Positions 15,679 through 24,264 of a DNA stretch of 64,000 nucleotides are shown here, one piece after another (position 1 is the first letter of the stretch; each line of letters opens with the position of its first letter). Under the pieces are notes generated by a model. The model was not told the DNA's origin and ran no database searches. It was given only the letters and a program-made list of their open reading frames with translations. Source of the stretch: Spirochaetia bacterium (GTDB lineage Bacteria > Spirochaetota > Spirochaetia > CAKZLE01); the NCBI GenBank assembly GCA_021736385.1, contig JAIPFY010000005.1, forward strand, positions 1-64,000, read 5' to 3'. The translations under genes were made by a program, and so were the position numbers.

Positions 15679-16743
15679 ATGAAACGATTATTATCTACTG
15701 TTCTGGCTGTCTCACTGATGGTTCTCACCCTTGTATCATGTGAGCGATCAGAAGCACCGGAACCACAGGCAGCAGCAGCTGCACCGAGCGAGGCAGCTGC
15801 CCAGCCGGTTGAGATCACCGTCTATGCCTACGACTCGTTCATCTCTGACTGGGGCCCGGGCCCGGTGATCAAGGCCGGCTTCGAGGCCGCCTATGACATA
15901 CAGGTCAATCTGGTCTCCATGGGGGACAGCGGACAGGTCCTGCAGCGGGCTATCCTGGAGAAGGATCGGCCCAAAGCCGATGTGATCATCGGGATCGACA
16001 ACAACCTGCTCTATCAGTCGATCGAGGAGGAGGTCTTCCAGCCATATGACTCTCCGGCACTCTCAGGCATCGACCAGTCCCTGATCTTCGATCCCACACT
16101 GCACGTGCTGCCCTTCGATTACGGGTTCTTCTCGATCATCTATAACTCAGAGGTCATCACCGATCCTCCGCGATCGTTGGAAGACCTGACCGATCCCCGG
16201 TTCGAAGACAGACTGATCATCATGGATCCACGGACCTCTTCACCGGGGCTCGGACTGCTGCTGTGGAGTATCGCCCGCTATGGTGATGACTATCCGGCAT
16301 ACTGGGAGTCACTCAAACCATCTCTGCTGACGATCACCGACGGCTGGGATACCGGGTACGGTCTGTTCACCAACGGGGAGGCCCCCCTGGTGCTCAGCTA
16401 TACCACCAGCCCTGCCTACCATGTGGAGTACGAGGAGACCGATGTCTATCAGGCAGCGATCTTCGAGGAGGGTCACTATTTGCAGATCGAGGGTGCAGGT
16501 ATCGTGAACGGGACAGAACACCTGGAGCAGGCTCAGCTGTTCATGGACTATCTGCTGGGACCGGAGGCTCAGTCATCGATCCCGCTGACGAACTGGATGT
16601 ATCCGGTAGTGGAGGGAATCGAACTTCCTGAATCCTTTGCGTATGCCCCCCTGCCCTCGACGATGCTGACGATCGATTCCCACATGATCACCGAGCAGAT
16701 GGACTCCTGGCTCGATACCTGGACATCCATCATGAGCAGGTAG
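15679..16743 (+). CDS. thiB: Thiamine ABC transporter substrate-binding lipoprotein
   Basis: 354 residues with a lipoprotein signal peptide (hydrophobic segment, then LVSC, lipidated Cys21) and an Ala/Glu-rich linker before a periplasmic-binding fold starting VEITVYAYDSFISDWGPGP, the usual ThiB opening. It captures thiamine or its phosphates and delivers them to ThiP. Motifs such as DVIIGIDNNLLYQ and the DPRTSSPGLGLLLW segment are characteristic of ThiB. AAGGAG lies a few bases before the start. Preceded by a TPP riboswitch, which independently supports the assignment; thiP follows after five bases. Confidence 0.95.
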   Translation: MKRLLSTVLAVSLMVLTLVSCERSEAPEPQAAAAAPSEAAAQPVEITVYAYDSFISDWGPGPVIKAGFEAAYDIQVNLVSMGDSGQVLQRAILEKDRPKADVIIGIDNNLLYQSIEEEVFQPYDSPALSGIDQSLIFDPTLHVLPFDYGFFSIIYNSEVITDPPRSLEDLTDPRFEDRLIIMDPRTSSPGLGLLLWSIARYGDDYPAYWESLKPSLLTITDGWDTGYGLFTNGEAPLVLSYTTSPAYHVEYEETDVYQAAIFEEGHYLQIEGAGIVNGTEHLEQAQLFMDYLLGPEAQSSIPLTNWMYPVVEGIELPESFAYAPLPSTMLTIDSHMITEQMDSWLDTWTSIMSR

Positions 16744-16748
16744 GCCCC

Positions 16749-18443
16749 ATGGACGTGAGGAGCTACCGACACAGGCACCGTAGAGACATCTCACTGATCC
16801 TTGGATCTGCACCGGGGATCATACTGCTGACCCTGCTGTTCCTGATACCTGTCGGTATGGTCCTCATCGGGGCCTTCAGAGCCCCTGACGGGAGTCTCAC
16901 AGCAGCCAATCTGCTGGATGTGGCTGCTGATCCCTACAGCTGGCGTATTGCCTGGTTCACCTTCCTGCAGGCTGCTGTGAGCACCCTTGCCGCACTGGCT
17001 CTCGGGCTGCCGGGGGCGTATATCCTCTCGCACTATCAGTTTCGCGGCAAGCGGCTGCTGCAGTCCCTCTCACAGCTGCCGTTCGTACTCCCATCCATCC
17101 TGGTGGTTCTGGGATTCGTCATCTTCTTCGGCAACAGCGGAGTACTCAACAGAGCCCTGATGGATCTGTTCGATCTCTCAGAACCCCCTGTTCGCCTGCT
17201 GTACTCATTCAAATCGATCATCCTCGCCCATGCCTTCTACAACTTCCCCATCGCTCTGAGCATGATCGCCTCATTCTGGGAACAGCTCAATCACAGGCAG
17301 GAGTATGCGGCCCTTACGCTGGGGGCACAGCCGATGAGAGTCTTCGCGAGTGTGACCGCCCCCCGCCTCATGCCGGCGATCACCGCAGCCGCTTCGATGA
17401 TCTTCCTGTTCTGTTTCACCAGTTTCTCCATCATCCTCGTGCTCGGGGGCGGGCCGAGGTTCACGACTCTGGAGGTGCAGATCTACCAGCTGGCACGGGT
17501 CCGTTTCGATCTGCCCCATGCGGCAGCCTTCGCCCTCTTCTCCCTTGCCATCTCATCCGGGGTCCTCATCTTCTATATCCGATCACAGCACTGGATGCAG
17601 CGAGCCTCTGCAGATCTTTCCTATTCGCTGCAGCCGAAGGCTCCCAGGCGTACGCACAGGGTACTGATCATGCTCTACGGGGTCATAGCGGGGCTGCTGA
17701 TCATCGCACCGCTCGGTGCCATAGCCGTTCGTTCCTTCCAGGCCCCGGTCTTTCGTACGGGAACCTCTGTCTGGACCTTCAGGTGGTATGAGCAGCTAAT
17801 TGGGGCGGGATCGACTCCCGGGTCCTTCACCGGTTCGTCCTCTGCGATCGTGACGAGTCTGTCGATCGCCTCGATCGTGACGCTGATCACCATCCCCTCG
17901 GCTTTGAGCCTCGGGACGCTGATCATCAGACTCGAACGTCGTGCGAGCATGACCATGGAGACGATCCTGATGCTGCCCATGGCGATCTCCTCGGTGATCC
18001 TGGGACTGGGGTATTCGATCATCGCCCGCATGATCCCGGTGGAGCATATCACCTACCTGCTGATCATCGGTGCCCATACGGTGATCACCCTGCCGTTCAT
18101 GCTCAGGGCTATCCTCCCGACCTACAGGACCATCCATGCCGCGTACACCCCGGCAGCCCTGATCCTCGGAGCCAGACCGTTTCGTACGTTCCTCGATATT
18201 CAGCTCCCGCTGCTCTCGCGTGCCATCGCCTCCGGTGCGATCTTCGTCTTCGCGATCTCCATCGGTGAGATGCATGCGACCATGCTGCTCTCCGATGCCC
18301 GGGTGGTCACCATTCCCATTCTGCTTTACCGGCTCATCGGGGCCTATAATTTCAACGGGGCCTGTGCACTGGGCACCCTGCTCATGGCAATCTGCCTGCT
18401 GCTGTTCGCACTTACCAATTCCTTACATAAGAGAGAGCTATGA
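16749..18443 (+). CDS. thiP: Thiamine ABC transporter permease
   Basis: 564-residue double-length permease, about 12 membrane helices in two homologous halves, as in ThiP. Each half has an ABC-coupling EAA loop (EYAALTLGAQPMRVFASV near 184-201 and TPAALILGARPFRTF near 464-478). It forms the inner-membrane channel for thiamine, working with the lipoprotein upstream and the ATPase downstream; the stop overlaps the ATPase start (ATGA). It is also similar to Fe3+ permeases of the FbpB type; riboswitch and ThiB decide for thiamine. Confidence 0.94.
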   Translation: MDVRSYRHRHRRDISLILGSAPGIILLTLLFLIPVGMVLIGAFRAPDGSLTAANLLDVAADPYSWRIAWFTFLQAAVSTLAALALGLPGAYILSHYQFRGKRLLQSLSQLPFVLPSILVVLGFVIFFGNSGVLNRALMDLFDLSEPPVRLLYSFKSIILAHAFYNFPIALSMIASFWEQLNHRQEYAALTLGAQPMRVFASVTAPRLMPAITAAASMIFLFCFTSFSIILVLGGGPRFTTLEVQIYQLARVRFDLPHAAAFALFSLAISSGVLIFYIRSQHWMQRASADLSYSLQPKAPRRTHRVLIMLYGVIAGLLIIAPLGAIAVRSFQAPVFRTGTSVWTFRWYEQLIGAGSTPGSFTGSSSAIVTSLSIASIVTLITIPSALSLGTLIIRLERRASMTMETILMLPMAISSVILGLGYSIIARMIPVEHITYLLIIGAHTVITLPFMLRAILPTYRTIHAAYTPAALILGARPFRTFLDIQLPLLSRAIASGAIFVFAISIGEMHATMLLSDARVVTIPILLYRLIGAYNFNGACALGTLLMAICLLLFALTNSLHKREL

Positions 18444-19450
18444 AACAGGATATCGTCATACGCAATCTGAAGAAATCATTCCCGGAGTTCCTGCTCGATG
18501 TGGATTTCACGATCAGGCATCGAGAGATGATCACCATCGTGGGGCCATCCGGATGCGGGAAGAGCACCACGCTGTCGCTGATCACCGGTCTGATCGAGCC
18601 AGATCAGGGGAGCATCGCGATAGGCGATGAGATCATCAGCGATCTTCCGGTCTGGGAACGGAACATCGGGTTCGTGTTCCAGGATTATGCCCTGTTTCCC
18701 CATATGCGGGCAGCACAGAACATCGGGTACGGGCTGAAGATCAGAAACCGTCCTGCTTCCGAGATCTCAGAGGCTGTGACCGGACTGCTGGAGACCATTC
18801 AGCTGCAGGGGTATGAGAGTCGTTCGATAGAACACCTCTCTGGCGGTGAGCGGCAGCGGATCGCTCTCGCCCGAGCAGTCGCACCCAACCCGCGACTGCT
18901 GCTGCTCGATGAACCCCTCTCAGCCCTTGATGCCAAACTGCGTGTCCAACTGAGAAAGGAGATCCAGAGGATCCATCATGATCTCGGCTTGACCACCTTG
19001 TATGTGACCCATGATCAGGAGGAGGCTCTGGCGATCAGTGACCGGATCATCGTGATGAATCAGGGACGCATCGAACAGATCGGCACCCCGGAGGAGGTCT
19101 ACCACCGACCTGCATCACTGTTCGTCGCTCAGTTCATCGGAGAATCGAACATCCTTCCCCGTTCTGCAGTCCCGCTGCGACCGGATGCAGCAGAGAACGA
19201 CCGGATTGCACGGTATGTCAGTTTCCGGCCTGAGAAGACGACGATCAGGAGAGCTCCCCATGTACCGCTGTCTAATGAGATACTCTTCGATGACGTGCAG
19301 CTGCTCTATCAGGAGTTCGCGGGGCAGTACTATGCCTGCACCTTCACTCACCAGGGTGTTCAGTTACATGCATACAGTAAAGAGCGCCTGGACGGTAAAG
19401 ATACGTATATGCTTACGGTAGAACAAGAAGATTTGCAAACTATTGTATAA
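18440..19450 (+). CDS. thiQ: Thiamine ABC transporter ATP-binding protein
   Basis: 336 residues. Walker A GPSGCGKST (about 35-43), Q-loop FVFQDYALFP, signature LSGGERQRIALARA, Walker B LLLLDEPLSALDA and switch His in YVTHDQEEA are all intact. It drives the ThiBP transporter. It is about 100 residues longer than classical ThiQ and carries a C-terminal extension (after QFIGESN) that looks like the TOBE regulatory domain of Pot/Fbp-type ATPases, so it may have been recruited from that group. Ends the thi operon. Confidence 0.92.
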   Translation: MKQDIVIRNLKKSFPEFLLDVDFTIRHREMITIVGPSGCGKSTTLSLITGLIEPDQGSIAIGDEIISDLPVWERNIGFVFQDYALFPHMRAAQNIGYGLKIRNRPASEISEAVTGLLETIQLQGYESRSIEHLSGGERQRIALARAVAPNPRLLLLDEPLSALDAKLRVQLRKEIQRIHHDLGLTTLYVTHDQEEALAISDRIIVMNQGRIEQIGTPEEVYHRPASLFVAQFIGESNILPRSAVPLRPDAAENDRIARYVSFRPEKTTIRRAPHVPLSNEILFDDVQLLYQEFAGQYYACTFTHQGVQLHAYSKERLDGKDTYMLTVEQEDLQTIV

Positions 19451-19490: not shown

Positions 19491-20036
19491 ATGAAGAAGT
19501 TGTGCCTCGTACTGTTCCTGATGATCTCTGCCGGTAGTTCCATCTACAGTCTCACCGTGGAGTTCTCAGCCTATCCTCACCTCTACACGACCAACGGTGC
19601 CGACTCCTTTGATGAGTTCCTTCACCTGCAGTACGGCATGAGCCTGCGTACCGGTATCTCACACCCGATCACCGACCGCTTGTCCTGGGCTACGTCCCTG
19701 GGGATCGACTATACCGGGCCTTCGATGCCCTACGGCAACCTCATAGAGCGGGGCTTTACCTCAGTTTCGCTCTCAGGGGGGATCGATTACCAGATCGGTA
19801 CCCGAGCCGGTCTCAGAGTACTCATAGCTGCCCACAGCTCTTCGTATCTCTACACATCCATCATCTTCTCTCACCTTCAGGGAGTCCTCACTCCCTACGT
19901 GCGCATCTATGAAAGTGATACGATAGACCTGCTGGTGGATCTGCCGCTCATCTATGATGTGCGTAGAGACACCCCGGTCAATCAGGCCGTGGGAGTGGGC
20001 CTGAGAATACTGCTGTGCAAGGGGGCAGACCGGTGA
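19491..20036 (+). CDS. Small exported protein, probable outer-membrane barrel
   Basis: 181 residues with a signal peptide (KKLCLVLFLMISAGSSIYS) and no later hydrophobic helix. The mature part alternates polar and aromatic residues in short strands rich in Gly, Tyr and Ser (e.g. GFTSVSLSGGIDYQIGTRAG, SSYLYTSIIFS), the pattern of an 8-stranded barrel. ATG 19491 is preferred over a start 12 codons upstream because it begins the signal peptide; neither has a good Shine-Dalgarno site, and a 5-bp inverted repeat ACGGT/ACCGT runs into the start codon. The next gene starts inside its stop (GTGA), so the two are co-translated. Function unknown. Confidence 0.75.
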   Translation: MKKLCLVLFLMISAGSSIYSLTVEFSAYPHLYTTNGADSFDEFLHLQYGMSLRTGISHPITDRLSWATSLGIDYTGPSMPYGNLIERGFTSVSLSGGIDYQIGTRAGLRVLIAAHSSSYLYTSIIFSHLQGVLTPYVRIYESDTIDLLVDLPLIYDVRRDTPVNQAVGVGLRILLCKGADR

Positions 20037-20953
20037 GGGCAAGACGCTATGCACTGGTGCTGCTCACAGCAGCTGTTCTGCTGCTGGTGAGCTCCTGTGA
20101 TCCGTTCTCCCATCAGCCCGAAGGGGATCTGCATGCTCTGATCTTCAGCTCCAGCTATGAGGATATCAGTGGTATCAGTACACTCGATTATACCATCCCT
20201 GACGGCGATGACATGGCCATAGCCTTCTCCGCCTACGGCTACAGAAGTCTGGGAGAGGCTGCAGCGATCAACGACACCGATCCGACCGGGACCTATCTGC
20301 TCGATCGGATCGAGAATGCGTCACTGGTCGCCACATCGGATGATACGACCCTCTTCTACTACTCGGGCCATGGGGGATTCGATCCCGTTCGGGATGAATC
20401 ATTTCTTGTGACCAGCGAGGATAGCGGCTATGCACTCCATGCATCGACTCTGCTTGCAGCCCTTGATGAGATCCCGGGAAGGAAGATCGTCATCCTCGAT
20501 ATCTGTAACTCCGGAGGGTTCGTATCAAGCGGAGGATACGATGTGGACGGACTGCCGGAGGACTACTACAGTACCACTGGGGGCTCTCCCTTCGCTGAGA
20601 GCTGGGAGCGGTACTTCCAGTCGGAGGATCTCTCCGCAGGTGAGTATGCTGATATGATCGTGGTCTCTGCAGCAGGGGAAGATGAAGAATCATATGAATC
20701 CGGCAGCTATGAAAATGGTTTTTTCACCTACTTCTTTCTCGAATCGATCGGATTCGACCATGAGAGTCTGCAGGTGTATGACAGTCCCGGGGCAGACCGC
20801 AACCATGACGGTCTGATCACCATCAGTGAGGCCTACGGGAGTACCTTCGATCTGTTCGAAGAGCATATCTTCACCAGCAGCTATATCCCCAGCTACTATC
20901 CTCATATCTCAGGGGGACCTGCCGATACGGTGATGCTGCAGCTGCAGCGGTAG
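20033..20953 (+). CDS. Caspase-fold (peptidase C14-like) lipoprotein with an EF-hand
   Basis: 306 residues from GTG 20033, chosen for AAGGGGG upstream and the GTGA overlap with the previous stop. A lipoprotein signal ends at Cys22 (LLLVSSC). The body is a caspase-like domain: catalytic His113 in YYSGHGG and Cys158 in VILDICNSGG, followed by VVSAAGEDEESYE and NGFFTYFFLE, the usual metacaspase-like tail. Near the C terminus a canonical calcium loop is readable (Asp255, Asn257, Asp259, Gly260, Ile262, Glu266 in DRNHDGLITISE). It is probably an envelope-anchored cysteine peptidase, possibly calcium-activated; substrate unknown, perhaps the co-encoded barrel protein. Ends 33 bases from convergent uvrB. 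Confidence 0.87.
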   Translation: MRARRYALVLLTAAVLLLVSSCDPFSHQPEGDLHALIFSSSYEDISGISTLDYTIPDGDDMAIAFSAYGYRSLGEAAAINDTDPTGTYLLDRIENASLVATSDDTTLFYYSGHGGFDPVRDESFLVTSEDSGYALHASTLLAALDEIPGRKIVILDICNSGGFVSSGGYDVDGLPEDYYSTTGGSPFAESWERYFQSEDLSAGEYADMIVVSAAGEDEESYESGSYENGFFTYFFLESIGFDHESLQVYDSPGADRNHDGLITISEAYGSTFDLFEEHIFTSSYIPSYYPHISGGPADTVMLQLQR

Positions 20954-22974: not shown

Positions 22975-24264
22975 TCAATCCCACTCATACTGTTCGGGAC
23001 GCTCGACGAGCTCCACATCGAGATTGATGCGCTTGTTCCCGCGCATCACCACCACATCGATGGTATCGCCGGGTTTGGTCGATTCGAGGGCACTGAAGTA
23101 GTCGGCAAAGTCAGAGATGATGATTCCTGCTACCTCGACGATGATATCACCATCGAGATAGAAGATCAGATCCCCGTATTTGACCTTCTCAGATCCGCCT
23201 CTGATCCCTGCGGTCTCTGCCTTGCCTCCGGCCTCCACCTTGGAGACTATGATCCCCGCATCAGTCTCCAGCCCCCCATAGGCAGCGATACGGCTGTCCA
23301 GCTGTACCGGGTTGATGTCGATCCAGCCCCTGACGACTTTCCCGTACTCGATCAGTTCCGGTATGACTCTCACGGCAGTATCGACCGGGGCTGCGAACCC
23401 GATCCCCATGGACCCGCCGGTCGTCGTGAAGATGGAGGAGTTGATGCCGATCATCCTGCCCCTCGAGTCGATCAGCGGTCCGCCGGAGTTCCCCGGGTTG
23501 ATCGAGGCATCGGTCTGGATCATATTGAGCATGATCAGATTCTTATCGGTCTTGATCGGTCTGTTCAGTCCTGAGACGATCCCGACAGTGAGGGTCCTGT
23601 CGTATCCGAAGGGGTTCCCGATGGCAAGGACCTTCTGCCCGATCTTCAGGTTCTTCGAGGACCCGAAGTCTATGGTCGTGAGTTTGACACCCTTCGGGTC
23701 GATCTTGACGATGGCAAGGTCGTTCTCCTTGTCCTTCCCGATGACTTTCCCCACATAGCTGGTCCCGTCGTAGAGACTCACGTAGACCTCGTCGACACCA
23801 TCGATCACGTGATAGTTGGTCACGATATGACCCTCCTGATCGATGATCGACCCGGAACCTGAGCCGGATTCTGACTCGGGGATGGCTTCGAGGAAGAGGT
23901 TGTACTGATAACTCTGTTTTGTGATATTGACGACGGCCTTGTTATATTTTTCATAGATATCGATGTTCTGCTGTTCACTTTCGGTGTAATCGGAGTACCC
24001 GGCACTGGAGAAGACTGCCAGAGCCTCAGCGATGATGCCCAGAGGACCTGCATCCTCCTGCTGTGAGATACCGGCAAGCTCAAGCAGTCCTGCCTCTCCC
24101 TCATCCATCATCACCGTTCTTGCAGCCTGCTGCAGCATCTTCTGAGCTGCACGTTTGTTGAGATAATCCGTCCAGGTATAGATGCCGTATCCGATCAAAG
24201 AGGCGATCAGCACCAGAGCGATCAGCCCTATGATCTTCTTTGTATCTGTTGATGGTTTGCTCAT
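22975..24264 (-). CDS. HtrA/DegP-family membrane-anchored serine protease
   Basis: 429 residues: an N-terminal membrane anchor (about 11-30), a trypsin-like domain with catalytic His152 (TNYHVID), Asp182 (ENDLAIVKID) and Ser260 (NPGNSGGPL), and one PDZ domain at about 325-420. A Ser/Gly repeat (SESGSGSGS) sits just before the first protease strand. The single PDZ and anchor match DegS/HtrA of the envelope quality-control type. It faces the periplasm and degrades or senses misfolded proteins. Its stop lies two bases from the uvrB ATG. Confidence 0.95.
   Translation of the reverse strand: MSKPSTDTKKIIGLIALVLIASLIGYGIYTWTDYLNKRAAQKMLQQAARTVMMDEGEAGLLELAGISQQEDAGPLGIIAEALAVFSSAGYSDYTESEQQNIDIYEKYNKAVVNITKQSYQYNLFLEAIPESESGSGSGSIIDQEGHIVTNYHVIDGVDEVYVSLYDGTSYVGKVIGKDKENDLAIVKIDPKGVKLTTIDFGSSKNLKIGQKVLAIGNPFGYDRTLTVGIVSGLNRPIKTDKNLIMLNMIQTDASINPGNSGGPLIDSRGRMIGINSSIFTTTGGSMGIGFAAPVDTAVRVIPELIEYGKVVRGWIDINPVQLDSRIAAYGGLETDAGIIVSKVEAGGKAETAGIRGGSEKVKYGDLIFYLDGDIIVEVAGIIISDFADYFSALESTKPGDTIDVVVMRGNKRINLDVELVERPEQYEWD

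Follow-up and report, generated by a model that had tools for sequence, protein, structure and literature searches.

A conserved barrel-plus-caspase gene pair of spirochaetes suggests an envelope protease with a predicted calcium site

Introduction

What might a caspase do in a bacterial cell envelope, and with what partner? Caspase homologues in bacteria are mostly treated as cytoplasmic proteases of cell death or defence. The question is raised by two overlapping genes in a 64,000-nucleotide stretch of DNA from a Spirochaetia bacterium (hereafter the window), one encoding a barrel-like exported protein and the other a caspase-fold lipoprotein that carries an EF-hand loop. A preliminary description of this locus proposed that an envelope-anchored caspase with a dedicated partner would be new. 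Our analysis of the two proteins, their relatives and their genomic settings suggests that the pair represents a protease at work in the cell envelope. If this is true, a conserved envelope caspase that has a fixed outer-membrane partner and carries a calcium site within its core would imply a surface or periplasmic role for bacterial caspases, and the barrel would define an unnamed family of outer-membrane proteins.

Results

Overlap of the barrel and caspase genes

Both genes lie on the forward strand. The barrel gene (19491–20036) starts with an ATG at 19491, ends with a TGA at 20034–20036 and encodes 181 residues, of which approximately residues 1–20 form a putative signal peptide. The gene for the caspase-fold lipoprotein (20033–20953; 306 residues) runs from a GTG at 20033 to a TAG at 20951–20953. 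The stop of the first gene and the start of the second share the four nucleotides GTGA (20033–20036, forward strand), as the preliminary description had stated, and a ribosome-binding-like AGGGGG (20020–20025, forward strand) is found 7 nt before the GTG. An overlap of exactly 4 nt recurs in 42 of 71 barrel–caspase pairs in relatives, which supports the earlier proposal that the barrel is a co-translated partner. Promoter and terminator scans gave results at chance level. We also considered a barrel–caspase fusion and rejected it, because the long open frames at some loci merely overlap in other frames.

The caspase-fold lipoprotein

The downstream protein matches the Pfam family Peptidase_C14 (PF00656) with E=3.8e-13 and 50.1 bits against a cut-off of 21.4, and the same family is matched by all 23 members of caspase set A1. 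Its AlphaFold2 model (pLDDT 84.6), calculated like that of the barrel from alignments built in this analysis, has a metacaspase-like fold; the nearest structures found by Foldseek are metacaspase-9, MALT1, GSU0716 and fungal metacaspases, and a profile search of solved structures places metacaspase-4 near it as well. When solved structures were searched with the single protein sequence only a chance match was returned; the profile search succeeded. The closest solved C14 chains are those of Arabidopsis metacaspases 4 and 9, yeast and Candida metacaspase 1, and Geobacter GSU0716. The match to the EACC1-associated caspase model NF047832, at 41.9 bits, is under its curated cut-off of 140. A lipobox, V-S-S-C22 (20087–20098, forward strand), has its cysteine in 89 of 90 relatives. 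These family, model and lipobox results together support the assignment of a caspase-fold lipoprotein.

The residues expected of an active protease are almost perfectly conserved. We compared 90 distinct caspases, 88 of which are readable at positions 156 and 158. The catalytic histidine H113 (20369–20371, forward strand) is present in 90/90, and the D156-I-C158 motif (20498–20506, forward strand), which contains an S1-pocket aspartate and the catalytic cysteine, in 88/88; the His113/Cys158 dyad named in the preliminary description is therefore real and was numbered correctly. D57 (20201–20203, forward strand), also found in 90/90, aligns with the S1-pocket aspartate in metacaspase chains, and position 111 is S or A across the relatives (S111 in the window protein). 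The S1 pocket of TbMCA2 comprises Asp95, Ser156 and Asp211 (PMC4357240), and D57, S111 and D156 align with the metacaspase S1 pocket. Because the acidic residues of this pocket (D57 and D156) are conserved, we predict that the protein cleaves after Arg or Lys, as metacaspases do. The label 'metacaspase' fits the fold, the dyad and the S1 aspartates, but it is loose: the metacaspase DD motif aligns with Ala-Ser in the window protein, and by an approximate ligand mapping an Asp occupies the two positions in 31/53 and 21/53 of the relatives that have the EF loop. The linker from the lipid anchor to the first strand of the caspase domain is short, with a median of 11 residues.

An EF-hand loop within the caspase core

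The calcium loop DRNHDGLITISE (residues 255–266, D255-RNHDGLITIS-E266; 20795–20830, forward strand) lies between core helices 230–238 and 264–278, an assignment that draws on sequence, model and conservation. It follows the canonical EF-hand pattern that we searched for, a 12-residue loop between two helices with D at position 1, D or N at 3 and 5, G at 6, I, L or V at 8 and E at 12, and so the loop is complete, as had been described; calcium binding is predicted from this pattern. Because the loop connects the two final core helices of the caspase, it is built into the core itself rather than being a separate added domain. In the model it is preceded by a 16-residue insert. Shuffling the window protein produced the pattern in 42 of 20,000 trials, so that a single protein would show it by chance in approximately 0.2% of cases. 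Unaided, the EF-hand models of Pfam recognize several of the caspase relatives (best E=7.7e-5) but not the window protein itself. The predicted site is of another kind than the calcium-binding loop of metacaspases.

The preliminary description had made its case depend on conservation of the EF residues in orthologues, and in 53 rows of the alignment they are near invariant: position 1 is D in 53/53 and position 12 is E in 53/53, values that the search pattern itself imposes fully or almost fully; position 3 is N or D in 52/53, position 5 is D in 52/53 and position 6 is G in 49/53. In the tree the loop is absent from one supported clade of 32, drawn from family group f8 plus one metagenome relative, and also from three further rows, two of them partial and one divergent. 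Members of this clade retain the dyad and the lipobox, and most retain the barrel. Since the dyad persists there, calcium is dispensable for the basic function of the family.

Outside the spirochaetes, 10 of the 94 other bacterial C14 proteins sampled have an EF loop in the corresponding position; they come from Desulfobacterales, Polyangiaceae and Thermotogae, among other groups. An EF-hand motif has also been reported in seven archaeal orthocaspases (PMC6426788). The calcium loop alone is therefore not new. By a crude signal test, 7 of 8 readable non-spirochaete bacterial caspases with the loop look exported versus 49 of 72 without it, numbers too few to claim a difference.

The barrel and its conserved outer rim

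The upstream protein is predicted to consist of a signal peptide and an eight-stranded, OmpA/OmpX-like outer-membrane barrel. Its AlphaFold2 model has eight strands and a mean pLDDT of 89.6, and the best Foldseek matches are OmpA, Ail, NspA and OmpX; the structure prediction thus agrees with the earlier description of an exported, 'barrel-like' protein. These proteins have the same predicted fold as the spirochaete barrel but are only 10–17% identical to it in structural alignments and have no Pfam family in common with it; the barrel itself has no family match in Pfam or NCBIfam.

The spirochaete barrel also differs from these proteins in which side is conserved. In barrels of this type it is usually the outer loops that vary. 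We assigned sides by the usual rule that both chain ends of an outer-membrane barrel are periplasmic, and defined the outward half as the outer loops plus the upper halves of the strands. Across 48 barrels conservation is higher in this half (1.49 bits) than in the inward half (0.93 bits), a difference reached in 0 of 10,000 permutations. The most conserved positions are Q47, Y119, D160, R158, P152, T122, R87 and F126, and outer loop 4 carries an R158-R/K159-D/E160 motif (19962–19970, forward strand) with R158 in 44/48 barrels and D or E at 160 in 46/48. This pattern means that the outer rim probably has a specific task; alternatively, the conserved residues may form a polar network within the barrel. 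The match to the barrel profile is split in two by an additional stretch, possibly an enlarged loop, in two genomes of one genus (G065:C53:8308-8943 and G102:C39:2073-2708).

The pair is conserved across the class

Whether the two genes stay together in relatives was the other point on which the preliminary description rested. Searching 297 genomes of the class with a barrel profile, we found the barrel in 67. It is directly upstream of a caspase relative in 54 of these, and in 4 others the two genes are no more than 3 kb apart, one of these pairs having a toxin–antitoxin-like gene pair in the gap, so the linkage is well conserved; of the remaining matches, 5 are cut by contig ends, 3 are unlinked in genomes that have both genes (G059, G020 and G175) and 1 is doubtful. 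When the question is approached from the other side by a genome-wide search, the barrel is present in 48 of the 51 genomes that carry a strong caspase orthologue; the remaining three have weak adjacent matches. A contig scan with the single window protein yielded no confirmed relative; relatives were recovered with a tighter alignment. Because the flanking genes differ among lineages, a frozen gene order does not by itself account for the linkage. The pair, including the EF loop, is also present in one genome of another class in the same phylum. Among cultured free-living spirochaetes, the barrel and caspase genes are adjacent in Salinispira pacifica (G047; PMC4511686) and 2.8 kb apart in Spirochaeta smaragdinae (G025; PMC3035371).

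Two variant arrangements were seen. At one locus (L007:2463-3099) the pair is split by an insertion, an opposite-strand toxin–antitoxin-like gene pair (YefM/RelE-like by eye) that separates the barrel from the caspase. In genus group g91 of family f8 (L108, L109 and L263–L267), two caspase lipoproteins in tandem follow the barrel, and neither has the EF loop.

Discussion

A proposed envelope module

We propose that the two proteins form a spirochaete envelope module in which an Arg/Lys-specific, lipid-anchored caspase is docked to the barrel and uses its EF loop as a calcium-dependent check on location, a reading to which we assign a probability of about 0.5. Translational coupling would supply the barrel and the caspase in near-equal amounts. 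After export, the caspase-fold cysteine protease would be anchored in the envelope by its lipid and kept at or close to the eight-stranded barrel, which would act as a docking or regulatory subunit. There it would cleave after Arg or Lys, the specificity predicted from D57 and D156. The EF loop, which joins the two final core helices, would load calcium in the envelope and serve as a check on both folding and location: in the cytoplasm, where calcium is scarce, the enzyme would be loose and inactive, and it would become rigid and active after export to calcium-rich surroundings, rather than responding to a calcium signal. Protease activity, basic specificity, barrel–caspase contact, calcium binding and gating are all features that we infer from conservation and models, and the conserved linkage may also reflect a shared function without contact. 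If the lipoprotein faces the periplasm, the conserved outer rim of the barrel would be out of its reach.

A more elaborate version of this proposal strikes us as rather improbable. In it the barrel is a holdase and regulator dedicated to the caspase, which it bears on the outer membrane, with the Arg-Arg/Lys-Asp motif of the outer rim docking in the Arg/Lys-specific active site or acting as a pseudosubstrate, and with calcium loading of the EF loop restricting activity to the outside of the cytoplasm; the result would be a calcium-gated outer-membrane caspase complex.

Alternative readings

The alternative that we take most seriously, although we consider it unlikely, is that the EF loop is a purely structural, always-loaded calcium site that stiffens the helix-loop-helix without gating, and that the barrel and protease act in one pathway without touching. 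Envelope calcium is normally high, the clade that lost the loop keeps its dyad and lipobox, and the flanking DNA retrieved for some exported EF-bearing caspases outside the spirochaetes contains no match to the barrel profile, all of which would suit such a site. However, the tight pairing, the 4-nt overlap and the co-occurrence of the two genes even when unlinked suggest more than a common pathway, though contact is not proven thereby. Conservation of the barrel's outer rim is also consistent with a surface-processing or sortase-like enzyme, held by the barrel on the cell surface where it would trim or attach surface proteins; spirochaete lipoproteins are often exposed there. The precedent is PorU, a clan CD cysteine peptidase, which differs from the spirochaete module in belonging to another peptidase family and in having a much larger barrel. 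PorU is a sortase that forms a complex at the outer membrane with the barrel proteins PorV and PorQ (PMC8545088), and we use this as the closest working analogy, with no claim of kinship. The short linker between lipid anchor and caspase domain speaks against such a surface enzyme, and we regard it as improbable.

Two further readings seem very unlikely to us. Pseudo-variants are known among bacterial caspase homologues (PMC6426788), and the caspase fold could likewise be a catalytically dead binding module with the barrel as its receptor, but H113 and C158 are invariant wherever readable and the S1 aspartates are equally fixed. Lowest of all we place an abortive-infection caspase that acts in defence or cell death. 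A PADLOC caspase model does match weakly (E=1.4e-5, 22.5 bits); yet the protein is an exported lipoprotein rather than a cytoplasmic one, the family is distributed clade-wide near housekeeping genes such as uvrB, and the genes near it in the window encode a thiamine-type transporter and UvrB. Given the weak match, the export and a neighbourhood without defence genes, we rejected the PADLOC assignment.

Relation to known caspases

The spirochaete caspase shares with the C14 peptidases, that is, metacaspases and bacterial orthocaspases (PF00656), the fold, the His-Cys dyad and the S1-pocket aspartates; unlike them it combines a lipid anchor, an EF loop in the core and a fixed outer-membrane barrel partner. 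It has the EF motif within a caspase fold in common with the other EF-bearing prokaryotic homologues, but those are scattered singletons, whereas the spirochaete form is fixed throughout most of its class and tied to the barrel. In the portions of a 2012 survey of prokaryotic metacaspases that were available, Spirochaetes are among the groups and OmpA domains occur in 14 operons, with no barrel–caspase pair described there (PMC3501461). We found no description of the pair among the titles and abstracts listed by searches of open-access literature. The suggestion that an envelope-anchored caspase with a dedicated partner is new thus holds for the pair in the literature searched, but not for EF loops in caspase folds, which were already known (PMC6426788). 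The new part is the fixed, clade-wide barrel-plus-caspase envelope module, which appears to be undescribed.

Genomic surroundings

Directly upstream of the pair, the window contains ThiB/ThiP-like transporter genes and an ABC ATPase (15679–19450); the same ABC ATPase is upstream of the pair in several relatives too. One gene away from the pair and beside uvrB, an HtrA/Do-type envelope serine protease is encoded at 22975–24264. In several lineages a gene for an SH3-like lipoprotein of approximately 130 residues is found beside the pair, often divergent from it (L011:2479-2865, L013:3067-3453, L016:3090-3479, L018:3015-3416 and L020:513-935).
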